From: Thiothrix sp.
Lineage (GTDB): Bacteria; Pseudomonadota; Gammaproteobacteria; Thiotrichales; Thiotrichaceae
Assembly: GCA_020442915.1 (NCBI GenBank)
Contig: JAGRJD010000069.1
Coordinates: 1 to 64,000 of the forward strand
Direction: 5' to 3'
Length of the DNA stretch: 64,000 nucleotides
Below, piece after piece: positions 667-28,158 of this stretch (positions are counted from its first letter, which is position 1; the number at the start of each line of letters is the position of its first letter). The notes beneath the pieces are model-generated. The model did not search any database and was not told where the DNA came from. It worked only from the letters and a program-made list of their open reading frames with translations. The translations under genes and the position numbers were made by a program.

Positions 667-3600
667 TTAGCGGGCGTCAGGAACCGTACCGTTAATGATG
701 TAGTTGACGGCAGAACTCTGGTTGCCGGGGTGGCGTAATACGTTACCCAGTACCAGATTGATGTCATTGCCCGGTCCGGCAAACAGCGTACTGCCATCCA
801 GGTTGAAGTCGGAATTGTAATAACCTGCAAGGCGGTAGTTGCTGTTGAGTGCCGTGTTGTCCGGCTGGCGCAGTATCAGTGCCAGCAGTGTGGTCGGATC
901 ATTACCCGGCCCATAGGCAATAATGCTGTTGCTTTGGTTTGCATCACCGGACCACATCAGCGCAGGGCCGGTACCTGTCAGGCGGGCATTGGCACCGTAG
1001 ACCGGTGTTGTCGCCAGACCGAAGTCGACCAGTCGGGGCGTGGGTGACAGTGACAGGGTATTGAGTGTCATGACACCCAGATGATTGCGGTGATAGACCA
1101 CCACATAATAATCACCCGCGCTGACATTTTCGAACTGCAGGGTGGTACTGCCACTTGCTGCATCCATGACATCGCCGTCACGCTGCAGCAGTGCGGCCTG
1201 AGCGGCAACCAACTGAGTGCGATCCGTCGCCGAACGCAGCTCCACCAGCACCCAGTCCACCGCCGCATCAGTACCCACCATGCTCAGCAGGCCGGCCTGC
1301 GCCGTTTCGGTACCCGGATAACTGAACCGGTAAGCCGTGCCTGCATAGGGCTGATTCAGTGGCAGCAGGTTCAGGGCACGCAGACTGTCGTTCATCAGGC
1401 CGGTGGTCGAACTGTACGGCCCCTGAAGAATGGTACGCACCTGCAGGGCTACCGTGGAGACATCAACAGCATCCAGATAATCCGGGATACCATCGCCATC
1501 GGTATCCACCGCATCGGCCGGGCTGCCGTCACCGTTCGGATCGTTCTGCTCGGCGGAAGACAGCTTGCCGTCACCGTCATCATCGGTATCCAGATAATCC
1601 GGGGTACTATCAGCATCGGTATCATCATCCGCCGGCGTGCCACCGTTGTAGTTCTCGTTGGCGGTCAGGACGCCGTCACCATCGTCATCGGTATCCAGCG
1701 CATCCGGCGTGCCATCCTTATCGGTATCAACCGGATTGGCCGGGTCGGAACCGACTTCCACACCATCCGGAATGCCATCACCGTCAGAATCCGGATTGGT
1801 CGGGTTGCTGCCAGCCTGTTCCTCTTCACCATTGGTCAGGCCATCCTCATCCGGGTCAGCCAGCGGGCCATCCGTATCATCCGCATCCAGATAATCCGGC
1901 TTGCCGTCTCCATCGGTATCCACCGCATCTGCCGGGCTGCCGTCATTATTCGGATCGTTCTGTTCATCAGCCGACAGCTTGCTGTCACCATCATCATCGG
2001 TATCCAGATAATCCGGGGTACCGTCACTGTCGGTATCATCATCCGCCGGCGTGCCACCGTTGTAGTTCTCGTTGGCCGTCAGGACACCGTCATTGTCATC
2101 ATCGGTATCCAGCGCATCCGGCGTGCCATCATTATCGGTATCAACCGGGTTGGCTGGATCGGAACCGACTTCCACACCATCCGGAATGCCATCACCGTCA
2201 GAGTCCGGATTGGCCGGATCAGTACCTGCTTTCACCTCATCGGCATTACTCAGGCCGTCACCATCCGGATCAGCATCCGGGCCATCGGTATCATCCGCGT
2301 CCAGATAATCCGGCTTGCCGTCTCCATCGGTATCCACCGCATCTGCCGGGCTGCCGTCATTATTCGGATCGTTCTGTTCATCAGCTGACAGCTTGCTGTC
2401 ACCGTCATCATCCGTATCCAGATAATCCGGGGTACCGTCACTGTCGGTATCATCATCCGCCGGCGTGCCACCGTTGTAGTTCTCGTTGGCCGTCAGGACA
2501 CCGTCATTGTCATCATCGGTATCCAGTGCATCCGGCGTGCCATCATTATCGGTATCAACCGGATTGGCCGGATCGGCACCGACTTCCACACCATCCGGAA
2601 TGCCATCACCGTCAGAATCCGGATTGGTCGGACTGGTACCGATAGCTGCCTCCTGCTGGTTGGTCAGGCCATCGCCATCCAGATCGCCCAACGGGCCATC
2701 GGCATCATTGGTGTCCAGATAATCCGGAACCGTGTCACCATCGGTATCCACCGCATCTGCCGGGCTGCCGTCATTATTCGGGTCGTTCTGCTCGGCAGAC
2801 GACAGCTTGCCGTCTCCGTCATCATCCGGGTCCAGGTAGTCCGGAATCCCGTCGCTGTCGGTATCATCATTGGCAAGGGTGCCACCGTTGTAATTTTCAT
2901 TGGCGGAAAAGACACCATCACCATCGTCATCGGTATCACGGAAATCCGGAGTACCATCACTGTCCGTATCCTGCAGCGGTGCCGCCGTACCACCCTGATC
3001 AACATCAAAGGCATCGTCCAGGCCGTCATTATCAGCATCGTTACCGGAAGGAGCCGTATCCGCTACACCATCATGGTTGGTATCACGCGCTTCAATGCCA
3101 TCCGGCACGCCATCGTTGTCACTGTCTTCATCCAGACTGTCCGGAATGCCATCATTGTCGGTGTCGACACTGCCATCACCCTCCACCGTATCCAGGATAC
3201 CGTCGCCATCATCGTCCAGATCATTGGCATCAACGATACCGTCACCATCGGTATCCGGACGGTTATCGACCGCATCCAGATAATCCGGCTTGCCGTCTCC
3301 ATCGGTATCCACCGCATCTGCCGGACTGCCGTCATTATTCGGATCATTATTTTCATCAGCAGACAGGATACCGTCACCGTCATCATCGGTATCCAGGTAG
3401 TCCGGAATGCTGTCATTGTCGGTATCATCGTCGGTCGGGCTGTTGCCGTTGTAGTTTTCATTAGCCGTCAGGACACCGTCATTGTCATCGTCAGTATCCA
3501 GCGCATTGATCGTGCCATCACCATCGGTATCGGTCGGACTGGCAACAGTCCCTACCTCAACCCCATCGGGTACACCATCACCATCGGAATCCGGATTATT

Positions 3601-4272
3601 GGGGTTGGTGCCGATCAGCTTTTCATCTCCGGTGATGATGCCATCACCATCCGGATCCAGACTGTCAGCACAGTCAGCCGCCACACCATAATTCTGACGG
3701 TAGTTGTTGCCGGTGCCATCACCCCAGCCCATGTTGGTGAACTGGTTGCCTGGATTGGTACCCAGACTGTTGCTACCTGAACTTGCACCTAACGTACTGT
3801 TTTCCGGCAGGAACGGGTCACTAGCATCAATCAGGCTGACGGGGCCAAGACAGGTGCCGGAATTGGTGAAGCTGAACACCTCGACCTCCTGCCCGGTCTG
3901 CCAGCCGAATGCGCTTGCTGGTGAAATATAAGTCAGAGCAAATGAAATATAATCGTGGGTCGGGTTTTCTGCCGGCGCATCGGCACGGGAGTTGTCGGCC
4001 CAGTTGGCGCCGGTAACAGTGGAACTCAGGTTACTGACGGTAAAATAATCACTGCCGGTTCCGTGGGGTACCAGAATGGTGACCTGGCCCGTCATGCTGT
4101 TGTCCGGGGCCGGTGTTTCAGTGGGCGTCATGTAGACATGATAACGATTGTCGGCTGTGCTCCAGCGAATCGTATAGTCCAGGACTTCATTGGCAGCCCA
4201 GGCACTGTTGGCAGTCATCAACAATACCGAGGCGCTGAGTCCAAGGGTTTTCAGCAATTTTCCTTTCTGCAT
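667..4272 (-). CDS. Secreted thrombospondin type 3 repeat protein with shared C-terminal module
   Basis: 1201 residues, probably secreted or surface exposed. Residues 1-26 are a signal peptide ending NSAWA. Residues about 27-200 form a domain that is repeated as a stand-alone protein in the next gene upstream (shared landmarks: Q/D-Y start, [27 protein letters not shown]). Residues about 202-935 are acidic thrombospondin type 3 calcium-binding repeats of the form [10 protein letters not shown] and DTDDDGDG, encoded by long near-identical DNA repeats. Residues about 937-1201 form a module also found at the C-terminus of the giant neighbour and alone in the 295-residue protein; it carries two dockerin-like stretches (GDANQSN and DFNLDG, each followed by a GPGND motif). 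The family suggests a rigid calcium-loaded stalk with a sorting or interaction module at its end; this is inference. The start has a modest GAGAGAAG ribosome site. Confidence 0.85.
1471..2712 (-). repeat. Three tandem copies of a 414-bp coding repeat (138 residues each)
   Basis: The landmark (a/g)tccagataatccgg recurs at 1471, 1885, 2299 and 2713, exactly 414 bases apart. Between these points three near-identical copies encode thrombospondin type 3 repeat blocks. A more divergent copy follows, and the next landmark, at 3274, is off the 414 register. The multiple of three means that gain or loss of units keeps the reading frame. Confidence 0.9.
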
Positions 4273-5199: not shown

Positions 5200-8100
5200 T
5201 CACTGGTCGCCCGGAATACCCCCCTGAATCACATAGTTACCGATGTGACCGGTATTGCCCGGATACATCAGGATGTTCCCCAGCAACAGGCTTGCATCAT
5301 TATCCGGTCCGGCAAATACCACCTGGCCATCCAGATTCAGGTCCATGCCGGCATAGGCCTTCCAGAGGAAACTGCTGTTATAGCCCGTGTTACCCGGTGC
5401 CATAAGCACCGAGGACAGTATCCGGTTCATGTCGTTGCCGCTACCCAGCATGTGCAACCGGTGATCATGATTGACATCCCCTGCCCACATCAGGGCCAGT
5501 GTATCGCTCTCCAGCCGCCCATGCTGTCCGGCAGAAACCGGCAGGTCAGGTCGGCTGAAATCCACCAGCGCTGGTACCGCCCCCAAGGTGAGCGCTTGGG
5601 CCGTCATCACGCCAAGGTGGTTTCGATGCCGCAGACTGACAAAATAATCCCCTGCTGACAGACCGGGGAAATTCAGCACCGGCAGGCCACTGGCGGCATC
5701 CACCACATCACCGTCACGCTGCAGCAAAGCGGACCGGGCAGCCACAATCAGCGCCGGACGCTCACGCGAGCGCAGCTCCAGCAGCACCCAGTCCACGACA
5801 GCATCATTTCCGTCTGCCAGTAACAGGATATCAGCGGTCCGCTCCAGTCCCGCATGCCCGAACGGGGCTTCGGCATAAGGCTGCATCCGGGGCAACAGGT
5901 CCAGCAGGCGCAGGTTATCAGCCATCAGACCGGCTTCGGGATCATAAGGCCCCTGCAGCATGGCCCGGACCCGAAGACTGACCCCATCACTCTCTTCGAC
6001 ATCCTGCACCACGACCTTGAGCAGACGGTTGTCCTCATAACCCAGATGATCCACAACACAGAGTATGACCTCATACTCATTATCGCCATTGGCATCCTGT
6101 GGAATTTCATAATCCGGCGGGCTGACAAAGCGCAGAACCCCCGTCACCCGGTCAATGGAAAACAGGGCCATGTCCGCCCCCCCGTTCAGGCGGTAAGTCA
6201 GGCCCTGTCCCTCCATGTCACCGGCATCACTGTCCACGGCGGTCAGATCATACACGGCACCTTCACCCTCTTCGGCGAAGCTCACCTGAGCCGGCGAATC
6301 AATAACCGGCTTTTCATTCACATCCTGCACCGAAACCTGTACCGGTACGGTGACGGAATTCCCGTGCACATCCACGCCCGTGATCTGTACCTCATAGACA
6401 TTATCCTGCCCGGCGTCAGCCGGTGCTTCAAAGTCACCGGGATTGCCTGCGGCGGCAGCACGGAAGGTTGACAGATTGCGCGTGACAACAACTTCATCAT
6501 CCGTACGCAGGAACTCCAGGGTACTGCAGTCAAATGTGGCACCAGGTACGGGCTCATGAATGATGAACGCTGCCGCATCCACGCCACCGCTGATCATGTA
6601 GGAAATGGGGTCGCCGTTCCTGTCCGTCGTCTCCAGCAGCGTCACCAGCGGCTGGTTTTCATTGATTTTCAGGCTGCTCAGATCCGCATCGGGATTACTG
6701 AGCAGGTTGGTGCAGACCGATGAGGCTCCTCCCTTTTTCACTCCGGAAAACTCCGAGGTGCTGCCCAGGGTGTCCGTACCGCTCTTTTCCGTAACGGTAA
6801 CAGCAATACTGTCATCAACCGACACAGCCTGGCTGGCATTCAGTACCCCCTTGAAGTTATGCGGCCCGCCCCCCGGATGCACGATATCCATAAAGCCCAG
6901 ATAAGTCTCACCCTCACCATGGCCCGTAGCATCGGCATCGGTGCTCCTGAAAAACTCGATCCGGTAGCCATCCGGGCTGGACGGGGCATCCAGGTCAAAG
7001 TCATAAGTCAGAATCGGGGTTCCATTGGCACCAAAGGAGCCGGCCTTGACCTCAGGGTAATTCAGCAAGCGGTTCGGCCCGGTATCCACGTCACCCTCAT
7101 CATTGGCCGTCACACCATCAGCCCCCAGATCAATACCCAATCCGCCGTTACCATAAATACGGTTCTGAGTGACCGTGTTGTCGACACCGGTGCCATTCAT
7201 GGCAATGCCGGCCCAGGTCTGGCCCGTAATGGTATTGGCGCTGATGTATGTCACAGAGACCCCATTGCCCAGATAGATACCGTGTCCGCCATTATCCCGG
7301 ATGGTATTCGCCTCCAGGCGATTGCCATTGGCCGACCCATACAGCTGGAACCCGTGGGAGCCCTGCCCGGACAAGGTATTCCCGGTAAACCGGTTGGCAT
7401 TGGAGTCCCCCAGGGAAACACCGATACCCCCCAGACCGACACCATTATCGGCAATGGTATTGTTGCGGAATACGTTGTTGTCGGCATTGTCACGCAGATA
7501 CACCCCATAGCCCGGATTGTTGCTGATGGTATTGTCAGACAGCAGGTTGTCGTGCACATTGCGCTCCAGCGACAGGCCACCATTCCGGTTGCCACTGATG
7601 CTGTTGGCCGTGATGGTATTGTTCACGTTGTTCATGAACAGAACCAGACCATAGCCGTTGCTGGCCGTGATGGTATTCGCCCGTACCAGACTGTCACTGG
7701 TGTAGTAAAGCCGCACGCCATCCTTGAGGGAGATACCGTAACCATTATGGCTGATGGTGTTTTCAAGCAGCCGGAACCCGGTCAGCGAATCGGCGGAGGA
7801 ACCATTCAGCACCACGCCCACACCCCCCATGTTCTGCACCACCACTGCCCGCAGCACCGACTGGTCCGCCGTGGCAGCAAAGACGACTCCGTCTTCATCC
7901 CTCTCGGAGAAACTGCTGTCCAGCACCACGATACCTGCACCGGTATTGGCCGCCAAGGAACGCCCGTCAATCACGCTATGGGGAGCGGATACCTGCAGCC
8001 GGCCATCCAGCACAATCCTTGCCTCACCGTCCACCAGTGCTGCTGCCGGAATCATGAAGTTGACCACATTGTCTTCCGGCCCGTAATCACCTGCCAGCGG

Positions 8101-8304
8101 ATCCGGCAGCACCTGTGTCAGGCGGCTGCTATCCAACAGGTTGGCATTCAGGACATACTGGCGCAATGATCCCTGCCCATCCGGATTGACATTGACCACG
8201 GTGCTGAAATTAAAGCCGAAATCAACCCCCTCCTGCTCCGGACCACTGATGGATACCGGCTGCACTACCTGCGCCTGCCGGCCATCCAGCCCCCCCCCCC
8301 GCAA
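5200..8304 (-). CDS. 3' part of the giant adhesin-like gene: beta-helix, cadherin-like repeats, C-terminal module
   Basis: This frame of about 1034 codons is the continuation of the gene at 8222-17836 and is out of frame with it by one base at a G11 run. Its only upstream start is a TTG inside the run with no ribosome site, so it is not a separate gene. Residues about 20-60 hold the FGFNFSTVVNVN / GQGSLRQYVLNAN linker typical of modular adhesins. Residues about 100-370 are right-handed beta-helix repeats (NTITxNxGxG patterns as in NosD/PbH1 proteins). Residues about 575-775 are cadherin-like (VQDVNEKPVI, DYEIPQDANGDNEYEV). Residues about 778-1034 are the shared C-terminal module with [45 protein letters not shown] and DLNLDG-FAGPDND. 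If the protein is made only up to the G run, all these parts are lost. Confidence 0.8.
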   Translation of the reverse strand: MRGGGLDGRQAQVVQPVSISGPEQEGVDFGFNFSTVVNVNPDGQGSLRQYVLNANLLDSSRLTQVLPDPLAGDYGPEDNVVNFMIPAAALVDGEARIVLDGRLQVSAPHSVIDGRSLAANTGAGIVVLDSSFSERDEDGVVFAATADQSVLRAVVVQNMGGVGVVLNGSSADSLTGFRLLENTISHNGYGISLKDGVRLYYTSDSLVRANTITASNGYGLVLFMNNVNNTITANSISGNRNGGLSLERNVHDNLLSDNTISNNPGYGVYLRDNADNNVFRNNTIADNGVGLGGIGVSLGDSNANRFTGNTLSGQGSHGFQLYGSANGNRLEANTIRDNGGHGIYLGNGVSVTYISANTITGQTWAGIAMNGTGVDNTVTQNRIYGNGGLGIDLGADGVTANDEGDVDTGPNRLLNYPEVKAGSFGANGTPILTYDFDLDAPSSPDGYRIEFFRSTDADATGHGEGETYLGFMDIVHPGGGPHNFKGVLNASQAVSVDDSIAVTVTEKSGTDTLGSTSEFSGVKKGGASSVCTNLLSNPDADLSSLKINENQPLVTLLETTDRNGDPISYMISGGVDAAAFIIHEPVPGATFDCSTLEFLRTDDEVVVTRNLSTFRAAAAGNPGDFEAPADAGQDNVYEVQITGVDVHGNSVTVPVQVSVQDVNEKPVIDSPAQVSFAEEGEGAVYDLTAVDSDAGDMEGQGLTYRLNGGADMALFSIDRVTGVLRFVSPPDYEIPQDANGDNEYEVILCVVDHLGYEDNRLLKVVVQDVEESDGVSLRVRAMLQGPYDPEAGLMADNLRLLDLLPRMQPYAEAPFGHAGLERTADILLLADGNDAVVDWVLLELRSRERPALIVAARSALLQRDGDVVDAASGLPVLNFPGLSAGDYFVSLRHRNHLGVMTAQALTLGAVPALVDFSRPDLPVSAGQHGRLESDTLALMWAGDVNHDHRLHMLGSGNDMNRILSSVLMAPGNTGYNSSFLWKAYAGMDLNLDGQVVFAGPDNDASLLLGNILMYPGNTGHIGNYVIQGGIPGDQ

Positions 8305-11300
8305 ACCGGAAACTCAGGACATCCAACCGTGCACCATCCCGGTTGGCACCGGCATCTGCCAACAGCGGGTTACGTCCACCCACTTCATTCATGACCGCTG
8401 CCGTACCGGTACTGCGATAAGTCATGACACCGAGTTCGGTCCCGTTCGAGCCTCGGCGTACAGAGTCGACACTGTCACTCACCACCCGGATGAAATAGTT
8501 GCCCGGCACCAGTTCAGGTAGCCGGTAGATGCCGTCCTCTCCGTCGGTGGCAGCCGTTCTGAGCGCGGCAACCATCTGGCCTTCACTGTCATAGACCTCG
8601 ACCAGGGCGTTGTTGATACCCGCGGTTCCGGCAGCCCCGAATGAGCGTCCGGCCCCCCCACCGTAATTCATGTCCTCAAACACCCGACCACTGACAGCCC
8701 CGGTTGCCGGGCTGCAGTCGCCTTCCGTCAGGGTCACATTGTCAAGGATCAGCGTACTGGTCAGCACCCCATCGGCATAGGCACTGCCACCGACCGTACA
8801 CCCCCCCATCAGATGCGGAAAACATGACTGACCGGCTGCCGAGGTATCAGCAGCAAACTGGCCATAACTCACAAAGCTTATCGTCGTCGAGTCACTGTCA
8901 GCCACAAAGAAGACCCGGTAATACACGCCCTGCGCAGTATCCGGAACCTCCAGATGCAGCATGCGGGTGGCCAGCCCCCGGACCTCCAGCCCGGCAATAC
9001 CGGATGGTGCACCACTGCCCCCCGTGTCCGACAACACCTCAAAGCCCAGATGATAGGTGACACCCGGCGTGGTATTGAAAGTACGGCTCAGCCGCAGCGG
9101 CTGGCCACCGAAGTCCTGAAGCCCGGCAGTTTCAGCCGGCGTCAGGTCATCGGCCCGGTCACGGATTTCCAGTGCCTGCGGCGGATTTTGAACCAGCCCG
9201 TCGGCATCAAAAACAAAGCCGGCCTCCGGGTACATGCGCCGCACCTGGCCATTACCGAAATAAACGGCCTTGCCTGACGCAACAGCACTGCGCGCAATGA
9301 TGTTCGCCGGAGTGTCGGAACCACCACCGACAGCCGACCAGTCACGAATGGCGACCTGCCCGTCACGGGCCGGCCCCCAGTATGCAGGTGCCAGATCATC
9401 AAAATTATCCGAGAATACCGGTACGGCACAGCTGGCCTCCCCATCCACGCGCTGCAGCCGCAGCTCGCCTTGCGGGTAACGGCCCGTGTTGACGGCGATA
9501 CCGATCAGGTAATCCTCAACCTCACCCAGACCGGCACTGTCAACAGCAGCACTGTCACCGGCCAGGCTGGTTTCACTGCTCAGACGCAGGCGCAGGTAAC
9601 GGGTGCCGGGCCTGAGGTCCGCCGGCAGGGCCGGCCAGTCCAGCATCACATCAGCACCCCCCTCCGGGACTTCGACCTCAGCAGACTCACCAGCCTCGAA
9701 AGTACCACTCTTGTCAAAATCAATCCAGCCCATCAGCTTGGCAACGGCACCACTGACATTATGCACCGGCACTGCCAGCTGGTAGCTCCCGGCCGTTTCC
9801 AACAACAGCGGCAAGGCGACAAACTCGCCATTGACAAGCCCGTCCAGCTCCTCATCATCCTGTCCGCTGGCATCATCGCCATTCGCATCAGGCTTGACAT
9901 TACCGTTGGCAGCCAGGGTGCTGGCCGGGGCATCTTCAGCATCCGGCACTCCGGCCCCGATATGCAGATCAGCAGAAATGACCTGACTGCCGCCACCGAA
10001 ACTGGCCGGAGCATCACCATAATCACGCTGCACCACCTGGCCGATGACAACCCGATGATCCTCTACCTCACCATCTGCGGCAGGCCCCACAGTACCGATA
10101 CCGGCAACCGAAGCCCAGCGGAAACGTGCCATACTGTAGCCATCAGGTATGCCGGCAGGAACACCGACCTCAAAGCTGATCCAGCCGGTACGGCTGTCGG
10201 TGTCACCGGCAGCATTATCCTGCAGGTCCTGCGCCACCTGTTCGCCCGCATCCTGAAAATCACCATCCCGGTTCCAGTCCACCCAGGCCTGCAGATAACC
10301 GGCACCGGTCACGGCAACCGGAACAGTCACGCTACTGCCCGCCGTCAACAGCGGTACCTGAACCCCGTCCTCGTCATCAACACCACTGGTATCATCCCCG
10401 TCTGCTGCCGGACCCGTGCGGGCCTCCAGCTCCCTGTCCGGCGCGATACTGCCCAGATACAGACTGTCATCACCGGTATGAAATGCGCTGCCGTACGAGG
10501 CCGGTGCATCCGAATAATCGGCAGAGATACAATTTTCCTGTGCCGTTGTCACAATCTGCTCCACTTCCACACCAGTGAGCGCAAACCCGCTGCCCTTGAT
10601 GAACAGACGGCGGGGCGTGGCCTGATTGACTTCCGGATCGGCAATGTTGTCCGCCACCTCTCCGGTATAGGCGCCCCCCACTGAGGCAATGGCGGCAAAC
10701 TCCTCCCTGGCATCCGAGCTGTCCTGAATGAAGACCACCGAGAAGGTGACGCCCTGACGCTTGAGCAGGTTGAAAACGGCATAGTTGCTGCCATCTCCGG
10801 GCTCATAGGCCATGTTGTCCAGATCCAGTGTCACGCTGCTGCCACTGTTGGCATAGGCATCACTGAAGACAATGATCTGTAAAGGCCGGGCACCAGAACG
10901 GTCAAGCTCGTGTATCGGTCCGACCAGTTGGTCATGGGTGGTATCCGGATCACCGTCCAGAGCGAAACGCAGGAACTGCAATGCGACAGCCAGGTAGTCA
11001 GAACGGGCGCTGGAATCGAAAACCCCGCCGGTAGCAAACTGGCGCACCGGTGTCGTCATGGGCGCAGCGCTGAAATCCCGTTCGATGTAAACCATCTGCT
11101 GCTGATACGGCATGCTGCCGGCATAATGTGCCACCGCGACCCTGCTGGCCGGACTGTCAGCCAGCAGGCGGCTGCCCACCTGCAGCATGCTGTTCTGGAA
11201 GGCAGCATATTCAGCCTCGGAAATGGAGCCGGAATTATCCACCACAAACAGCACATCCTGTCCGCCATCCACGGAGCAGCTGCCCTCGACCACAGGCCCT

Positions 11301-14300
11301 GCCGTCGGATGAATCACAACCGCATAGTCCTCCACCTCACCATCACTGGCCGGGGCGGACGGTGACAGACTGACATCCCGTGACCAACGGAAACGGCTGT
11401 AAGTCGTGCCCGGTACCGCATCCAGCGGCACCCGCACATTGAAACCGATGTCACCAGTCGATGCCGATGCACTCAGATTAGTGGCAACCCGCTCACTGGC
11501 GTCGGCAAAATCCCCATCGGCATTCCAGTCAAACCAGGCCTGCAGGTACCCGCCACTGCCAGCCGTCCGGACGTTGATCCAGGCCGACTCGCCAGCAATC
11601 AGACGCCCGATGCTGACCCCGTCTTCATCATCCACAGCGTTGTTGTCATCCCCCAGAGCATCCATGCTGTCCAGCGCCTGCGTATCCGCATCCGGAGCCC
11701 CCTGACCCAGGAAAAAGCCGGGATCGGACAGCAAGTGCTCAGCACGCCCGTAACTGGCCGGGGCATCCGAATAATCAGAGAATGGCCCCACGCCACAGAA
11801 TGCCAGATTGTGAATGCCGAAACCGGGCTCACTGTCCGTGATCAGGGCACCATTATTGATGCTGAAGTCGATCACAACCCGATCCACTGTCTGCGGGAAA
11901 GCCACATGCAGCACGCTCTCATCCGAATTGCCACCGGCAGGCCGGGTGGGATAATCACCCAGCACCGTGTTGCCATTGATGATGTGGGCAGAACTGCCCG
12001 TCAGTACCGGCAGCACCACACGGTTCCTGAAATAACCGGTGATGACATATTTTTCCTGACGGTCAAACTTGTCCACTTCGCCATCCGCATCAAAAAGCCG
12101 GAAATGCAGACCATCGACACCGATACCGGAAACACCCACACGGATTTCCGTCTCCAGATGGTTGCTGGTCCCCATGACGGGTAATTTTCCTGCCACCATC
12201 AGGGTATTGCTGGGTGCGGCCTCATCACCCTGATAATAAACACCGTTGCCTGGTGCCGGATAAGGCGTGGTCACCAGCGCACCGGCCGGGTCGGATACGG
12301 TCAGGCTGATGGTTTTGCCCGCCACCCAATAGGCATTGTTTTTGTTGCCGGGAGTCCAGGTCACGTTTGACCAGTCCAGCTGCACCGGTGCCGGACAGAA
12401 TGCCTGGACCCGAACCACGTAATCCTCGACCTCCCCGTCCGGTGCGGGGTCAGTCACGTTCAGGCCCGCCCGCGAGGACCAGCGGAAACGGGCATAGGTT
12501 TCGGCCCGGGTTGCCGTTGCCGGCACCATGACCGGAATGCTGATGCGTCCGTTGCCATCGTTGTCCTGCAGGTCCATCGCTACCTGCTCGCCCGGATCGG
12601 CGAAGCTCCCGTTTCCGTTCCAGTCGATCCAGCCCTGCAGATAACCACCGGTGCCGTTAACCCTAGCCTTGATGGCCACGGTCGTGCTGCGCCCCAGCCA
12701 GGGAATGCTGACGCCTTCATCATCATCAAAGCCGCTGGTGTCATCCCCCATGGCGCCGGCCTGCATCAGGGATACCGAATCCGCATCCGGCAACCGGCTG
12801 CCCAGATAGTACGTTGCAGAATCCGGGATGTCATGGGTTGCCTCTCCATAGCTTGCCGGCGCATCCGAACGGTCCTTCTGAATCCCCAGACAGGCATCGT
12901 TTCCATGGCGTCCGCGTTCCGTTGAGTGCAGGGTGGCATACACATTCCGCCCCGCAGCCGGGGAGGCAAAGCGGATCACAATCCGGGTCACCAGGGTATC
13001 CGGTGTCAGCAGCGCAAAACTGCGGTGATTATCACCGGTATCGGTACTGCTCACGGTTGCGGATGCCGGGTTCCAGGAGGGTGGGGCCGCATCCGGAGAC
13101 TGCCACACGCTCATGTCACCGGCACGGTAACGCCAGCCGGTAAAACGGGAGACTGGATTACCCGCACCATCCAGTGCCGAAATGGTAACGCTGTCCTCAG
13201 CGTCGATGTCCAGCAGCAGCAGGTCCACATTGCCGGTCGGCTGGTCAAAATCATAAGTGACACGGGTGACACTACCGGATGCCGGCTCCAGATACAGGGC
13301 ACTGCCGCTGGCCGGCAGGTTCTCATTCAGCCAGGACTGCTGCTTTACAGCGGTGTCGATGGCCGTATCACTGAGATGGTGCATGCCCCCGGTCTGATCG
13401 ACCGTGACATCAACCCGACCCAGCCCCGGCAGCACCTGTGCCGGATAGGAAAAGCCACCACTGCCGGAAACCGGGGTAGCGGGGATGTCCGTGGTTTCCA
13501 GATTGCCTGTCTGGCCATCCGGCACCACGCAATAGTTTTCTCCACGTTCACAAGCACAGGTCCTGAGCGAGCCATCCAGATTGCGATTGTTGAGCAGATT
13601 GCGATAAATGGCATTGGCCGCTTCATCGTCCGGCTGCTCGGAGAAAATATAAAACTCGTCAAAATAGCCATTCAGCGACGGCAGACGGAAGTTGCCGGCA
13701 ACACTCCCGATACCGCCGGTATAAGGGTTGCTGCCTTTCAGTGCTCCGTTGACATACAGCTTCATCCCGCCCGGACCGAAACTGAGCAGTACATGCGTCC
13801 ATTGCCCATCATCCACGCTGCCATCCTGACGGACGGTGAAGTAGGTTTCTCCGGTACTGATCGTATTGCCGTTCAGGCGTGCACTGATCGTGCCACGGGT
13901 GGGGCTGCCGGCCTGATTGACATTCAGCATCAGGGCCTGAGCAGCCGTTGAGCCCTTCTCCAGCAGACGCGAACCGTTCCAGATATCCTGATTGTCATAC
14001 AGCAGGATCGACACAGCCCCCTGATCCAGCTCGTAACCGCTCTGGTGTGGGACCTCAAGATTCCCGCTGCTGTTGCGCATGGCCGTGCAGCCATAGGATT
14101 TGAAATCACTGACAACCACCGAGGGGGTTCCGGTAACGCTATTACCATAGCCGGAAGCATCCAGATTCCAGCTGCCACTGCCGTCGCAATCATCAAAACG
14201 GAACTCACCGGCCACGGCAATACCCGCCACACTGCCGACCGGGGGATCAAAACCGAAATCCTGCCCGCCCGTATCCGTATCGGCACTGACGTGGACATCG

Positions 14301-17300
14301 GTCAGCGGATTGGGCGTTCCGGGAAGATAGCCGGCAGGAATCGCCGCATCACCCGCTGCCACTTCGATACGGTAGGTCAGCCCCGTACCCACATTTTGAA
14401 ACGCATAGCGGCCATCCGGCTGCGCAACGGTCGTCGCCACCAGACGGTCATCCCTGCCATCAGTGGCACTGCCGCGCTGGTCATACAGTGCAACAGCAGC
14501 CCCACCAACCGGCCTTTCACCGACAGCATCCATGCGGTCATTACCATTGGTATCCACATAAAGACGACCACTGATGGAGCCTGTTGTGCAGCCGGTCTCA
14601 CCATCACGCCCGTCCAGGGTGCTGTGCAGAGTGGTGTAAACATGCCGCCCGGTAACGGCAGGCGCACGAAATGTGACTTTCAGCTCCGACAGCAGGACAT
14701 CGGGGGTCAGGATCGCAAAACTGCGGTTATCATTGCCATCATCCATGCTGGTGACGGTGGCGCTGCCGGCATCCCAACGGGGTGCTTCCGCCACCGGATC
14801 CGGGTTGGCCCAGACACTCATGTCACCGGCCCGGTAACGCCAGCCACGGAAATCACTGACCGGTCGGCCCAGTGCATCCACCGCCGCCAGCGTCACACGG
14901 TCCTCATCGTCAATATCCAGCAACAGTAGATCCACATTACCGGTCGGCTGATCAAAGCGGTAACTCACCGTCAGGGTGCCGCTGCTGTAGGCTTCCAGAT
15001 AAATGGCAGCACCACTGGCGGGCAGACTCTGGTTCAACCAGGATTGCTGATGATCACCATCAAGGGCATTCAGACTGGCAGCATGGGCACCGCCTGCCGC
15101 CTCGACCATGACATCCACCGTACCCAGCCCCGGCAGAACCCGGTCGGGATAGGCATGGACACCATTCCCCGCTACAGTAGCAGACGGCATGTCACCCAGT
15201 TCCAGCAGGCCGGTACTTCCCTGCGGGGCGACACAGAAACTGTTGACATATTCCGGTGGATCGAAGCCGAAATCCTGCCCCTCTATCAGGCCGGTGCCGG
15301 CATTGACGATCAGGGTCTCGGGGGTGCCCGGCTTCAGATCTGCCGGAATATCGGCATCACCCGTATCCAGCACGATGCGGTAGGTCGTGTCAGCCGGCAG
15401 GCCGGAAAAACGGTACTCTCCCCCGGAAGAAGTGGTACCCGTCCCCAGCAGGCCATCATCAGCCGGATCATCAGTTCCCCAGGTGTTGTACAGGCGAACA
15501 CCAATGGCTGCCAGCCCTGGCTCGGCACCCGGCTCAAAACGGTCATTGCCGTCATAATCAACAAAAACCGTACCGGTGATCGCTGCCAGGGCCGGCCTGA
15601 CGATACAGACCCGGTCATAGCTCACGGCATCAACAAGCACCCCGCCATTTTCGCGCACAAAACGCACATAGCGTGCCCCCTCAGCCGGCAGAAGTACCGA
15701 TACCCGTTCCAGCCGCAACAACGGCCCCCCCGGCCAGCTGCCAGCAGTGCCATACGTGCCCAGAACCGTATAGGTCGCACCATCCGCAGAGGTTTCCACC
15801 CTGATCCGTCCCTTGGTATTGTTGCGGGCCAGTGACAGCTCCAGCGAAGTCCCTCCTGCAGCAAACTGCGCCAGAGCCAGTGTCAGGGTGTCACCATTAT
15901 TCACCAGTGCGGCATTCGCGGATGAAGCCGTGGCCCCGACAGCATCCGGAGCACCCAGGGCCTGTTCTGTATCGGTTGCACCGACATTACCGGCAACCGC
16001 CGCCGCATGGCCGGTTTCTCCTTTCATGACATAGCCGGAGGGGCAGGTGCCGGAGGGCTGGGACGTAAACCCGAAATTCTGGTCACCCAGGGTCTGCCCG
16101 GCGCTGACCGCCAGAGCAGTCAGCGGATTCCGGGTGCTGTTGACCAGACCGGCAGGAATATCAGCATCATAAATATCGGCCTCAATCCGCCAGCTTTTAC
16201 CGGAATCCAGCTCAGCAAAATGGTAGGCACCGTCAGCACCGGTTACTGCCGTCTGCATCAGCCGGTCATCGGACAGGTCAGCCGTGCCCCGGTCGTCATA
16301 GGCCCGCACACTGATGTCGGCCATACCGCTATCAGCGCCGGCATCATAAGCACCGCTGGCATTCACATCCTGATAAACCACACCGGCCACCGCGCCCGGA
16401 TCACAATAGCTTTCCACCAGCGCCACATCATCAATGATCAGTTCATTCCCGTGCAGCTCACCACCACCGACGGTACACCAGGCACCCTTGACATATTCCG
16501 ATGCCGGATCACACCAGCCCTCCTGGCTGCTGTTGACATGTCCGTAATTGACAAAAGTCACGGACGAACTGGTCTGGGTGGCCGTAAATTCGACGGCATA
16601 ATCCACCGGAGCCTCCTTGCTGCCGGGAATGCGGAAGTGGATTGAGCCGCCGGGGACATCCAGGCGCATGGCCCCGGTGACAAAACCGCCACCGACATCC
16701 TCCGGCAGGGCACGGAAATACAGGCGGTAGACCGTACCCGGCGTGGTCGCAAAACTGCGCGACAGGGTGACAGGACCCGGCCCCCAGTGTGAGGCGGTGC
16801 CGTTACTCGCCAGCGTGGTGCCGGGGCTGATATCATCGGGCGCATCACGCAGCTCAACGGCGTCAATGACATTGGTGATGCGTCCGTTGACATCATGGGC
16901 AAAGCCGCTGCCCGGTAACGGCGGATCAATCCGGCGCACCGCACCATTGCCCAGGTAGATGGCGGCACCTGCCCCCCCATCACCGGCGGTGATACTGGCA
17001 TAGGTATCGCTGCCGCCCCCGGCAATGGTCCAGTCCCGCACACTGATGGTCGGACCGACACGCCGGGGAGCGATGAACTGGCCGAGGCTGGATGCCAGAT
17101 CATCAAAATCATCGGAAAAGACCGGCTTCTGGCAAGCCAGAGGTGTCACACCGCTGACAATGGAAACCGAAGTGCTTTCCGGCGGAATATCCATGGCAAC
17201 CGCCAGCGGGTAATCTTCCACCTCACCGCTGGAAGCAGCACCAGCCGGTGTAGCAGTTGTCACCGCAGGGTCGCTGGTCAGGCGGAAACGGGCAAAGGTG

Positions 17301-17836
17301 GTCCCCAGGCGGATATCCACCGGCACCTCCCAGTCCAGTGTCACCGTACCGGTGCCCGTTCCATCGGGTACGGCTGCCGAGGCCGCCTCATCCGGATCGA
17401 ACTGCCCGTTGCCATCAAAATCAATCCACCCGAACAGGGTGGCAGCGCTGGCCGTGGCATTGGTCACCGTCAGGTCCACGCGATATTGCATGGCGGTCAT
17501 CTTGAGCACGGGAAACAGGGGAATATAATCGCCAACGGGTTGACGGGGGGCACCATCCTCGTCACCGGAATCGCGCCAGCTCACACTGACACCATCCAGC
17601 ATGGCAGAACGCGGATCGGCATCGCCAAAGGCATTGATACTGTATTGACTTGCCGCTTCGGCATCAGGCGGGTTATTCCCCAGATACAGTCCGGAAACAA
17701 TAACATGGGAAGCATCCCCATAAGTTTCCGGCGCATCGCCGAAATCATCCGCCCCCCATGCCAGCAAGGGCATGGACAGCAGCAGGCCATAGCCCAGCCA
17801 CCTGGAGACCAGTCCAGAAAAAGCTGCATTTTTCAC
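8222..17836 (-). CDS. Giant modular surface protein (GEVED, SdrD-B-like, LamG-like, VWA domains), 5' part of frameshifted gene
   Basis: 3204 codons as read here. It starts at GTG with a GGGAG ribosome site and a signal peptide ending LLAWGA. Five GEVED domains (about residues 29-212, 1652-1808, 2018-2175, 2440-2595, 2602-2785) show the DAPASYG opening and GEVEDY ending. Four SdrD-B/Cna-B-like beta-sandwich domains lie near 478-592, 748-865, 1085-1200 and 3045-3182 (VxxDxNxNG and QDFGFDPP endings). A LamG-like domain (about 1202-1425) and a von Willebrand A domain (about 2182-2440, with the metal-site motif DNSGS) follow. Two unnamed modules each occur twice. The reading frame changes at G11 (8290-8300), after FRFAGGG; the last 21 or so residues are out-of-frame. 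With G10 the gene would run to 5200 as about 4211 residues. The role is probably adhesion or matrix binding at the cell surface, inferred from domains. Confidence 0.85.
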   Translation of the reverse strand: MKNAAFSGLVSRWLGYGLLLSMPLLAWGADDFGDAPETYGDASHVIVSGLYLGNNPPDAEAASQYSINAFGDADPRSAMLDGVSVSWRDSGDEDGAPRQPVGDYIPLFPVLKMTAMQYRVDLTVTNATASAATLFGWIDFDGNGQFDPDEAASAAVPDGTGTGTVTLDWEVPVDIRLGTTFARFRLTSDPAVTTATPAGAASSGEVEDYPLAVAMDIPPESTSVSIVSGVTPLACQKPVFSDDFDDLASSLGQFIAPRRVGPTISVRDWTIAGGGSDTYASITAGDGGAGAAIYLGNGAVRRIDPPLPGSGFAHDVNGRITNVIDAVELRDAPDDISPGTTLASNGTASHWGPGPVTLSRSFATTPGTVYRLYFRALPEDVGGGFVTGAMRLDVPGGSIHFRIPGSKEAPVDYAVEFTATQTSSSVTFVNYGHVNSSQEGWCDPASEYVKGAWCTVGGGELHGNELIIDDVALVESYCDPGAVAGVVYQDVNASGAYDAGADSGMADISVRAYDDRGTADLSDDRLMQTAVTGADGAYHFAELDSGKSWRIEADIYDADIPAGLVNSTRNPLTALAVSAGQTLGDQNFGFTSQPSGTCPSGYVMKGETGHAAAVAGNVGATDTEQALGAPDAVGATASSANAALVNNGDTLTLALAQFAAGGTSLELSLARNNTKGRIRVETSADGATYTVLGTYGTAGSWPGGPLLRLERVSVLLPAEGARYVRFVRENGGVLVDAVSYDRVCIVRPALAAITGTVFVDYDGNDRFEPGAEPGLAAIGVRLYNTWGTDDPADDGLLGTGTTSSGGEYRFSGLPADTTYRIVLDTGDADIPADLKPGTPETLIVNAGTGLIEGQDFGFDPPEYVNSFCVAPQGSTGLLELGDMPSATVAGNGVHAYPDRVLPGLGTVDVMVEAAGGAHAASLNALDGDHQQSWLNQSLPASGAAIYLEAYSSGTLTVSYRFDQPTGNVDLLLLDIDDEDRVTLAAVDALGRPVSDFRGWRYRAGDMSVWANPDPVAEAPRWDAGSATVTSMDDGNDNRSFAILTPDVLLSELKVTFRAPAVTGRHVYTTLHSTLDGRDGETGCTTGSISGRLYVDTNGNDRMDAVGERPVGGAAVALYDQRGSATDGRDDRLVATTVAQPDGRYAFQNVGTGLTYRIEVAAGDAAIPAGYLPGTPNPLTDVHVSADTDTGGQDFGFDPPVGSVAGIAVAGEFRFDDCDGSGSWNLDASGYGNSVTGTPSVVVSDFKSYGCTAMRNSSGNLEVPHQSGYELDQGAVSILLYDNQDIWNGSRLLEKGSTAAQALMLNVNQAGSPTRGTISARLNGNTISTGETYFTVRQDGSVDDGQWTHVLLSFGPGGMKLYVNGALKGSNPYTGGIGSVAGNFRLPSLNGYFDEFYIFSEQPDDEAANAIYRNLLNNRNLDGSLRTCACERGENYCVVPDGQTGNLETTDIPATPVSGSGGFSYPAQVLPGLGRVDVTVDQTGGMHHLSDTAIDTAVKQQSWLNENLPASGSALYLEPASGSVTRVTYDFDQPTGNVDLLLLDIDAEDSVTISALDGAGNPVSRFTGWRYRAGDMSVWQSPDAAPPSWNPASATVSSTDTGDNHRSFALLTPDTLVTRIVIRFASPAAGRNVYATLHSTERGRHGNDACLGIQKDRSDAPASYGEATHDIPDSATYYLGSRLPDADSVSLMQAGAMGDDTSGFDDDEGVSIPWLGRSTTVAIKARVNGTGGYLQGWIDWNGNGSFADPGEQVAMDLQDNDGNGRISIPVMVPATATRAETYARFRWSSRAGLNVTDPAPDGEVEDYVVRVQAFCPAPVQLDWSNVTWTPGNKNNAYWVAGKTISLTVSDPAGALVTTPYPAPGNGVYYQGDEAAPSNTLMVAGKLPVMGTSNHLETEIRVGVSGIGVDGLHFRLFDADGEVDKFDRQEKYVITGYFRNRVVLPVLTGSSAHIINGNTVLGDYPTRPAGGNSDESVLHVAFPQTVDRVVIDFSINNGALITDSEPGFGIHNLAFCGVGPFSDYSDAPASYGRAEHLLSDPGFFLGQGAPDADTQALDSMDALGDDNNAVDDEDGVSIGRLIAGESAWINVRTAGSGGYLQAWFDWNADGDFADASERVATNLSASASTGDIGFNVRVPLDAVPGTTYSRFRWSRDVSLSPSAPASDGEVEDYAVVIHPTAGPVVEGSCSVDGGQDVLFVVDNSGSISEAEYAAFQNSMLQVGSRLLADSPASRVAVAHYAGSMPYQQQMVYIERDFSAAPMTTPVRQFATGGVFDSSARSDYLAVALQFLRFALDGDPDTTHDQLVGPIHELDRSGARPLQIIVFSDAYANSGSSVTLDLDNMAYEPGDGSNYAVFNLLKRQGVTFSVVFIQDSSDAREEFAAIASVGGAYTGEVADNIADPEVNQATPRRLFIKGSGFALTGVEVEQIVTTAQENCISADYSDAPASYGSAFHTGDDSLYLGSIAPDRELEARTGPAADGDDTSGVDDEDGVQVPLLTAGSSVTVPVAVTGAGYLQAWVDWNRDGDFQDAGEQVAQDLQDNAAGDTDSRTGWISFEVGVPAGIPDGYSMARFRWASVAGIGTVGPAADGEVEDHRVVIGQVVQRDYGDAPASFGGGSQVISADLHIGAGVPDAEDAPASTLAANGNVKPDANGDDASGQDDEELDGLVNGEFVALPLLLETAGSYQLAVPVHNVSGAVAKLMGWIDFDKSGTFEAGESAEVEVPEGGADVMLDWPALPADLRPGTRYLRLRLSSETSLAGDSAAVDSAGLGEVEDYLIGIAVNTGRYPQGELRLQRVDGEASCAVPVFSDNFDDLAPAYWGPARDGQVAIRDWSAVGGGSDTPANIIARSAVASGKAVYFGNGQVRRMYPEAGFVFDADGLVQNPPQALEIRDRADDLTPAETAGLQDFGGQPLRLSRTFNTTPGVTYHLGFEVLSDTGGSGAPSGIAGLEVRGLATRMLHLEVPDTAQGVYYRVFFVADSDSTTISFVSYGQFAADTSAAGQSCFPHLMGGCTVGGSAYADGVLTSTLILDNVTLTEGDCSPATGAVSGRVFEDMNYGGGAGRSFGAAGTAGINNALVEVYDSEGQMVAALRTAATDGEDGIYRLPELVPGNYFIRVVSDSVDSVRRGSNGTELGVMTYRSTGTAAVMNEVGGRNPLLADAGANRDGARLDVLSFRFAGGGAGWPAGAGSAAGIHQWSGAGGG
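8290..8300 (-). repeat. G11 homopolymer at the frameshift point of the giant gene
   Basis: The plus strand has eleven consecutive C at 8290-8300, so the coding strand has G11. With eleven G the reading runs FAGGG then AGWPAG and stops 22 codons later. With ten G it runs FAGGG-LDGRQ and joins the downstream frame, which has the expected FGFNF linker. Adding two G would also restore the frame. Homopolymers of this length are prone to slippage in replication and to sequencing error. Confidence 0.95.
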
Positions 17837-18017: not shown

Positions 18018-18905
18018 CTAAAAATCGGGATTGCCGCTGACAATATAATTCATTGCAAAATTAATATTTGAAACATTTGTCAGAACATTCTGCAATAACA
18101 GCGCCAGATCATTACCCGGTCCTGCAAACAGGGCGGTGCCATCCAGATTGAAATCCCCCGCCACATACCCGGACAGACGGTAACTGCTGTTGTGCCCGCC
18201 ATTCCCGTCCGCAGTAAGCACCGACGCCAGCAGCAGGTTGCTGTCATTGCCACTGCCAACCGCGATCAGGTTGTTATCCCGATTGGCATCGCCACCCGGC
18301 AGCAGGCGAAATCCCCCACTGGCAATGCGCACATCCTTTCCGCGCACGGCGGTCGCAGCACTGGAAAAATCAACCAGAGCCCCCGCCTGCGACAGGCTCA
18401 CCGCATTCGCAGTGAAAACCGCCAGATGATTGCGGTGCCGAATGCCGACGTAATAGTCGCCGGCAGTCAGGGTCGGGAAGTTGATACCGACATTGGCCGT
18501 CGCCGGCTCCACCACATCACCATCACGCTGCAGTATGGCTGCCCGGCGTGCCGCCACAGTCCGTGGTGACTGCACCGCACGCAGCTCCAGCAACACCCAG
18601 TCCACCAGGCTGTCCTGTCCGCTCATTCCCATGCTCGCCGGCAGCAGCTGTTCAGTGCCGCCATAATTCCAGGGAGCCTCGGCAAACGGTTGGGACAGGG
18701 GAATGAAACCGGACTGCGAAAGCCGGTCATGCATAAGCCCGGTCGTGTCGACATAAGGCCCCTGCAGCAAAACGCGCAGACTCAGGTTTATCCCCTGCAC
18801 CGGCAGGCTGGAATCAGCAGCAACAATCGGCATCAATCCATGCCAGATCAACAGGACGGGCAGAAGCAGCCTCATGACCGGGCCATAAAATGATTGCAGT
18901 CGCAT
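18018..18905 (-). CDS. Secreted protein made only of the shared C-terminal module
   Basis: 295 residues. I chose the ATG at 18905, ten bases after AAGGAG. The signal peptide runs to MPIVAA. From about residue 40 onward the whole protein matches the C-termini of the two large island proteins: SLRVLLQGPY, GLMHDRL, PLSQPFAEAPW, VDWVLLELR, AILQRDGDVV, GDYYVGIRHRNHLAVFTA, a GDANRDNNLIAVGSGND segment and a [16 protein letters not shown] segment. The last two resemble a pair of dockerin-type calcium-binding loops with a GxGND insertion. It is the first gene of the island in transcription order and lies 181 bases upstream of the giant gene's start codon. It could be a partner for the same module on the big proteins or a stand-alone matrix component. 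No function is established. Confidence 0.8.
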   Translation of the reverse strand: MRLQSFYGPVMRLLLPVLLIWHGLMPIVAADSSLPVQGINLSLRVLLQGPYVDTTGLMHDRLSQSGFIPLSQPFAEAPWNYGGTEQLLPASMGMSGQDSLVDWVLLELRAVQSPRTVAARRAAILQRDGDVVEPATANVGINFPTLTAGDYYVGIRHRNHLAVFTANAVSLSQAGALVDFSSAATAVRGKDVRIASGGFRLLPGGDANRDNNLIAVGSGNDSNLLLASVLTADGNGGHNSSYRLSGYVAGDFNLDGTALFAGPGNDLALLLQNVLTNVSNINFAMNYIVSGNPDF

Positions 18906-19033
18906 GAATGGCAATCTCCTTATTATTTTAAATAATCGATAAATTCATGTATTTTATAAAATGGCATATTTTTTCACACTTGCATCGGTATGGCCATCCA
19001 GTTAGATTGCAGAACCCGATCCGAGGAAAGCTC
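18906..19033. promoter_or_regulatory. A/T-rich divergent intergenic region
   Basis: This stretch between the module protein and arsC is unusually A/T-rich for the window (runs such as TTATTTTAAATAAT and TATTTTATAAAAT). It probably carries the promoter of the leftward island and of the rightward arsC operon. I found no unambiguous -35/-10 pair. Confidence 0.4.
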
Positions 19034-20351
<1,318 letters not shown>

Positions 20352-20452
20352 AAAAGGCAAACAGCGGCAATCCGATACCGGCTTTCAGGTTCGGGATGTG
20401 AATGCAGCAACGGCAGGTATGGCCATTTCCGACAACCCATCAGGCAGAAACA

Positions 20453-22537
20453 ATGCACCAATATACAAAGGGCTTTTACTTTTCCCTGCTACTGACGCTC
20501 CTCACACCGACGGCAGCTGCCAGCGAATCATTCTGGTTCGATCTCGGAGCGGCCAGAATGACGGCTGACACAGACGGCTTTCAGCACCGTCGCCTGCAGC
20601 TGGACGAGGGCACGCTGCAGCAACAGCTGGAAGCCCGGTACCGCAGCAGTACGGATGCCCGCCCGACCCTGAGCCTGCCACTGCCGGCGGGTGGCTTTGT
20701 CGAGGTCATGCTGGAGCCGGTGGCACTGCTGTCCGCCACCGTTGCCAGCCAGCACCCGGAAATCAGCACCTGGAAAGTCACAAGCCACGACCCGCGCATT
20801 GCTGCCGGACGTGCCGAAATGAGTGCACTGGGCTTTCATGTACTGCTGCAGCTCAAGGATGGCAACCAGCTTTACATTGAGCCGGAACAGCAGACCCCTG
20901 ACCCGACCGCGCGCAACTATCACAGTTTCAGCCGCAGTGACAACCCTGCCGCCTTCAGCCAGTCGTTCCGCTGCGGTACGGAGCGCCTGCAACGCACGGG
21001 CATAAGCAGCCCGCTGCAGAACCTGGACTTCAGCCGGACAGCCGCCCGCATCCAGGCCAAAGCCGGTGAGGAGCAGCTCAACTACGACATTGCCATCAGC
21101 ACCACTGCCGAATACACCGCTTTTTTCGGCAGCCAGTCTGCCGCCCTGGGAGCCGTCGTCACCACCCTGAACCGGGTCAACCAGATTTATGAGCGTGATC
21201 TGGCCATTCACCTGAACCTGATCACGGGAACGGAAACCATTTTCACCAATCCGGATACCGATGGTTTCAGCAATGGCTCTCCCGGTCAGATGCTGACTGA
21301 AAACCAGGCCATCCTGAACCGGATTATCGGCAATGCCAATTACGACATCGGTCATGTATTCGGCTACAGTACCGGCGGCGATGGTCTGGCCCAGGTGGAG
21401 GCTGCCTGCAATACCCGCCTCAAGGCCCAGGGCAGCACCAGCTCCCCTGCGCCCAAAGGTGATACCTTCGCTGTTGACTTTGTGGCCCATGAACTCGGCC
21501 ACCAGTTTGGGGCAACCCATACCTTCAATGGCGGCAGCGGCAGCTGTGGTGGCCTCAGCCGTATTGCCGAAACCGCCTGGGAGCCCGGCAGCGGCAGTAC
21601 CATCATGGCCTATGCCGGCATCTGCGGCAGCGACAATATCCAGATGAATTCCGACCCGCTGTTCCACGGCGGTTCCATTGAACAGATCACCAGTTACGCC
21701 CACCTCGGCACTGGTGCCGGCTGTGCCACCCGCACCGTGCTGGGTAACAGCCTGCCGGTTGCCAATGCCGGCTCCGACTACACCATTCCGGCCCGCACGC
21801 CCTTCATCCTGAGTGGCTCAGGCTCGGACAGCGACGGCAACGCCCTGCTGTATGGCTGGGATCAGATGGATGCCGGCTTAGCCTCCAGTCTGGGCGTGGA
21901 CAGTGGCAACAATGCCCTGATCATGAGCAGTCCGCTGCGCAACAGCAGCATCCGCACCATCCCGGCCATGAGCAGACTGACCAGTAGCGGTGCCGGCAGC
22001 TGGAAAGGCGAAAGTCTGCCCACCACCAACCGCAACCTGAACTTCCGGCTTACGGTACGGGACGGTCAGGGAGGTATCGGCCATGACAGCATGAAAATCC
22101 GGGTTTACGATACCGGTGTACGTTTTGCCATCACATCACCGACGGATGCTGTGGCCAAGGGCGCACTGGATGTGAGCTGGGATGTCGCCGGCACAGACCA
22201 GAGCCCGATCAGCTGCAGCAAGGTCGACATTGCCGCCAGCAGCGACAACGGCAGCACCTTCACCGACCTGATCCGCAACACGCCCAATGATGGAGCCGAA
22301 ACAGTCACGCTCACCCGCGCAGCGCAGTATATCCGCGTTAAATGCAGCGACAATATCTTCTTTGCCCTGTCCGGAACCAGCCCGTATCTGGCCAGAAACA
22401 ATGGTACTTCCACTACGGACACCAACCCCGACACCACGACAACCGATGGCGGCGGTGGTTCCCTGCCGCTGGAGCTGCTCCTGTTATTGGGGGCCGCCAT
22501 GATCCGTCAGTATCACTTCCGGAGGAAAACCCCATGA
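20453..22537 (+). CDS. Secreted zinc metalloprotease (reprolysin-like metzincin) with C-terminal anchor
   Basis: 694 residues from ATG 20453, chosen because the signal peptide (hydrophobic FYFSLLLTLLTPTAAAS) starts there; an in-frame ATG exists 51 bases upstream. Residues 346-356 are HELGHQFGATH, the full HExxHxxGxxH zinc site of metzincins, and the Met-turn follows as STIMAYAG. The region after about 430 contains PKD/Ig-like stretches (NAGSDYTIPARTPFILSGSGSDSDGN). The C-terminus is a glycine-rich linker GGGGSLP, a hydrophobic helix LELLLLLGAAMI and basic residues, like GlyGly-CTERM sorting signals processed by rhombosortase. The next gene, a lipoprotein, overlaps by 4 bases. Substrate unknown. 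Confidence 0.88.
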   Translation: MHQYTKGFYFSLLLTLLTPTAAASESFWFDLGAARMTADTDGFQHRRLQLDEGTLQQQLEARYRSSTDARPTLSLPLPAGGFVEVMLEPVALLSATVASQHPEISTWKVTSHDPRIAAGRAEMSALGFHVLLQLKDGNQLYIEPEQQTPDPTARNYHSFSRSDNPAAFSQSFRCGTERLQRTGISSPLQNLDFSRTAARIQAKAGEEQLNYDIAISTTAEYTAFFGSQSAALGAVVTTLNRVNQIYERDLAIHLNLITGTETIFTNPDTDGFSNGSPGQMLTENQAILNRIIGNANYDIGHVFGYSTGGDGLAQVEAACNTRLKAQGSTSSPAPKGDTFAVDFVAHELGHQFGATHTFNGGSGSCGGLSRIAETAWEPGSGSTIMAYAGICGSDNIQMNSDPLFHGGSIEQITSYAHLGTGAGCATRTVLGNSLPVANAGSDYTIPARTPFILSGSGSDSDGNALLYGWDQMDAGLASSLGVDSGNNALIMSSPLRNSSIRTIPAMSRLTSSGAGSWKGESLPTTNRNLNFRLTVRDGQGGIGHDSMKIRVYDTGVRFAITSPTDAVAKGALDVSWDVAGTDQSPISCSKVDIAASSDNGSTFTDLIRNTPNDGAETVTLTRAAQYIRVKCSDNIFFALSGTSPYLARNNGTSTTDTNPDTTTTDGGGGSLPLELLLLLGAAMIRQYHFRRKTP

Positions 22538-26702: not shown

Positions 26703-26704
26703 GG

Positions 26705-28156: not shown

Positions 28157-28158
28157 GA

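Follow-up and report, generated by a model that had tools for sequence, protein, structure and literature searches.

An eleven-base G-run at positions 8290-8300 of the window, by which is meant the whole 64,000-nt stretch of Thiothrix DNA analysed, separates two open reading frames that are one gene, broken by a one-base change in the length of the run. The forward strand reads C11 at these positions (G11 on the coding strand), where a sequence-only reading had placed it, and this is both the sole run of at least 10 in the window and its longest G/C run. The upstream frame of 3204 aa begins with a GTG at 17836 and ends with a stop at 8222, 21 codons past the run and not the 22 first stated. 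With one base fewer in the run the frame stays open for 1028 codons, to position 5200, a little further than the 1020 codons first counted, and no further stop was found in it; the third frame meets a stop after 6 codons. From the ORF coordinates the joined product comes to ~4211 aa.

That these frames form a single gene of ~4.2 kilocodons, as had been proposed, is clear from two observations. A codon-usage score, trained on the genes of the window with both parts of the giant gene included, switches frame at G11 and is of similar strength on either side. In addition, the congeners encode the gene in a single frame of 4383 codons (G006) or 4377 codons (G004), each of which aligns to the N-terminal part through residue ~3187 and to the C-terminal part from residue 1. 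The break lies within 11 of ~12,600 bases, which under random placement would have a probability of ~0.001, and because the sole frame break in a 12.6-kb gene coincides with the longest G-run we infer that slippage, whether in the cells or in the sequencing, was its cause. Two genes that function separately, or a pseudogene that has become fixed, are scarcely credible readings. The deposited frame is broken, but the downstream part has no signal peptide or convincing start, its coding bias is still strong with no further lesions, and the congeners carry one gene. The locus is single copy, with no second copy or haplotype in the assembly.

Table 1. Features of the giant surface-protein locus and its surroundings (window coordinates).
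Feature	Position	Strand	Remarks
Downstream surface-protein gene	667..4272	-	intact; contains TSP3 repeats and a copy of the giant protein's C-terminal module
C-terminal module copy in the downstream TSP3 gene	667-1500	-	
C-terminal part of the giant protein, other frame	5200..8289	-	end of last SdrD_B-like domain, beta-helix, cadherin-like repeats, ~260-aa C-terminal module
C-terminal module of the giant protein	5200..6012	-	absent from the G11 form; the genome has related copies at 13 loci
N-terminal part of the giant surface protein	8222..17836	-	3204 aa; Sec-like signal peptide, GEVED, SdrD_B-like repeats, laminin-G-like and VWA-like regions
G11 run	8290..8300	-	three GGG codons of a Gly-Gly-Gly loop, the final G of a GCG and one extra base
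Neighbouring gene	18018..18914	-	C-terminal module alone behind a signal-like N-terminus

The N-terminus of the 3204-aa frame is hydrophobic and signal-like, ending LLAWGA. Upstream of the run GEVED domains were identified (E 5e-67), along with SdrD_B-like repeats and a laminin-G-like domain; a VWA match falls under the Pfam cut-off. Of the downstream domains originally proposed, the right-handed beta-helix (E 7e-45) and the C-terminal module were recovered, whereas the cadherin match is weak, its 24.9 bits lying under the Pfam cut-off of 28.8. The combination of GEVED and SdrD_B domains, beta-helix, shared C-terminal module and Sec signal is that of a giant Thiotrichaceae surface protein. The C-terminal module has no Pfam or NCBIfam entry, and its second half contains two GxxND-type repeats. 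Structure prediction, from three sequences only, gave a mean pLDDT of 51, and the one hit from a search of solved structures with the module, a cellulosomal scaffolding protein, was very weak and below threshold (E 0.27). Matches in a plasmid search were confined to the cadherin-like and beta-helix parts. Because it recurs at 13 loci and has a stand-alone copy behind a signal-like N-terminus, the module is probably a folded secreted domain and more than a mere tail. Near this cluster of surface-protein genes lies a gene for a reprolysin-type M12B metallopeptidase with a weak PKD-like region (20402-22537, forward strand). Two adjacent TrkH potassium-transporter genes with a listed overlap of 88 nt are found beside a TrkA gene (25251-29538, reverse strand).

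At the run site most homologues read F-x-F-S-G-G-x-L-[TN]-x-[KQ] or near it, in a glycine loop that precedes the strand-like motif VDFGFNF; the site is S-G-G-[GS]-L in G004 and G006 and A-G-G-G-L in the window. The homologues encode the loop with mixed glycine codons and have no run, as in the AGT GGG GGT GGT TTG of G006, and the window has GGG GGG GGG for the glycines of F-A-G-G-G. GGG accounts for 208 of the 1156 glycine codons in the training genes (18%). A comparison of tract length in sister genomes had been suggested, and in all homologues examined, both congeners and other family members, the orthologous site is without a G-run. Since the homologues keep the glycines without the run, the glycines are an old loop and the run is particular to the window's species among those examined. 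A further reading is that ribosomes shift frame at G11, or RNA polymerase slips there, so that both frames yield one product; long homopolymers are able to cause transcript slippage. This is very improbable: the join would require a +1 shift (or one G to be lost), a -1 shift, the common kind, leads into the frame that stops after 6 codons, and the homologues are without such a run.

The explanation preferred here, tentatively and with a little less than an even chance, is a real and recent slippage at a run that was born by chance, an event which is physically reversible and appears not to mark a selected contingency locus. The G-run would have arisen in this species through synonymous use of GGG in a Gly-Gly-Gly loop that lies towards the end of the last SdrD_B-like domain, and the gene, a single one encoding a secreted surface protein of several domains, would have been put out of frame by a slipped-strand +1 change. 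From the gene as sequenced, translation would end 21 codons on, and the G11 product, if real, would retain the GEVED/SdrD_B part together with the signal peptide and lose the beta-helix, the cadherin-like repeats and the C-terminal module; such a truncated form is presumably either non-functional or altered. Because the 1028 downstream codons are otherwise intact, the event would be either recent or reversing. Further slippage could physically reverse the change, which makes a mixture of lengths in the population plausible.

The main rival, which the sequence-only reading had also named as such, is a consensus of the wrong length: the cells would hold the in-frame length and an intact gene, and polymerase or base-calling slippage would have made the break. 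The gene is otherwise fully open over ~12.6 kb and is intact in congeners, G11 is among the longest runs of the genome, and deposited G-tract lengths can be wrong (PMC9187656). A C17 run (L058 4001-4017) lies 39 nt from the end of its contig (G000:C139), where the assembly probably failed, which indicates that long runs gave the assembly trouble. However, in a census restricted to G/C runs of at least 9, of which the window's genome has 45, clear coding bias on both sides was found for 19, and 17 of these lie in frame within one gene, the other two being a gene boundary and the break in the window. Four of the in-frame runs are of length 10, in genes for a polyketide synthase, an alpha-amylase, a GspK-like protein and a TPR protein. 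The gene boundary, at L051, is the sole other frame change at a strongly coding run in this genome; it was considered as a second broken gene and rejected, being the natural boundary between a urate-oxidase gene and a GntR-family (GntR-FCD) gene. General homopolymer errors are argued against, since of the 19 coding runs only that in the window breaks a gene. Accuracy at a length of exactly 11 can be checked only in the sister genome G006, because the window's G11 is the only coding 11-run of its own genome. There, G11 runs lie inside two intact housekeeping genes, aroC (chorismate synthase; L080 4001-4011) and pntB (NAD(P) transhydrogenase beta; L081 4001-4011). As these two and the other coding runs of the assembly keep frame, a real event is favoured over error and the change is likely to be present in the cells, beyond the consensus. 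An error is therefore less likely here than is usual, and is best regarded as a serious but minority possibility.

It is unlikely that the run is a selected, phase-variable contingency locus, at which slippage toggles between the full-length protein and a form without the beta-helix and C-terminal module. As in contingency loci based on simple sequence repeats, the homopolymer lies inside a coding frame and its length sets the reading frame. Surface proteins are typical targets of switching, the downstream frame is intact, and the architecture, with a secretion-signal ORF, a G-tract and a second ORF carrying the C-terminal part, is like that of a Bifidobacterium breve pilin (PMC9187656). However, no homologue keeps the run, and runs of this kind are at chance level in the window, where the count of 9-mer G/C runs is at the expected level and a run of 11 appeared in 26 of 100 dinucleotide shuffles; the presence of an 11-run is in itself unremarkable. 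Of the G11+ runs that could be examined in 63 family genomes most are intergenic, and the coding ones include some in genes for a photolyase, a glycosyltransferase and a DUF2201 protein, these all being in one frame. The long runs are neither above chance in the window nor concentrated in surface or regulatory genes, and since in the family they mostly lie between genes or within housekeeping genes they are no mark of surface-gene switches. A second frame-breaking G-run was seen in the family, a G13 that splits a response regulator in G026:C130 (L150 4553-5522), leaving the receiver and the LuxR-type HTH in different frames. MutS and MutL are present and intact in the window's genome. Mismatch repair is present, the run is not conserved and such runs occur at chance level, all of which speaks against a selected switch; the run looks like a by-product of codon usage and not like a contingency locus that has been conserved and selected. 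What holds of the original phase-variable reading is the one-base break of a single gene at a G-run; the idea of a dedicated device is not supported, given that the run is unconserved, that such runs are common in ordinary genes and that the genome has an intact MutS and MutL.

The closest known case is the G-tract of the B. breve pilins. In B. breve UCC2003 the sortase-dependent pilins bbr_0113 and bbr_1889 are likewise annotated as two ORFs around a G10/G11 tract, with the secretion signal upstream, the C-terminal part downstream and no active start in the second ORF (PMC9187656). There the database has G11, yet 60% of the culture was G12, and deposited lengths can err even in finished genomes (PMC9187656). 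The B. breve tract recurs across the genus and mixed lengths have been measured, whereas the present run is absent from all homologues examined; what is lost in B. breve is an LPXTG anchor, and here it is the beta-helix and an uncharacterised C-terminal module (PMC9187656). In Campylobacter the capD autotransporter has an intragenic poly-G in a large surface-protein gene, and a change in its length inactivates the gene, but the tract position of capC and capD is conserved genus-wide and the present run is species-specific (PMC7168839). On/off switching through a frame change at an intragenic poly-G is also known for hmbR and hpuA of Neisseria meningitidis, where, in contrast, variation has been demonstrated in isolates and belongs to a dedicated set of contingency loci (PMC3786947). 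By analogy, the window locus is a putative switch that may work like the G-tract switches of B. breve and Campylobacter. A literature search found no paper on phase variation in Thiothrix. It is distinctly unlikely that this free-living member of the Thiotrichaceae uses a G10/G11 switch to alternate between a full surface protein of ~4200 residues and one released without the beta-helix and C-terminal module.

The giant locus should be annotated as a single gene, whether or not the run varies. If the run does not vary, the case is one for caution, as G11 runs in this family arise by chance and sit in essential genes, and a G-run in a surface gene alone would be no evidence for phase variation. 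If it truly varies in the population, it would be a case in which an environmental lineage, the Thiotrichaceae, has a giant surface protein under poly-G switching.
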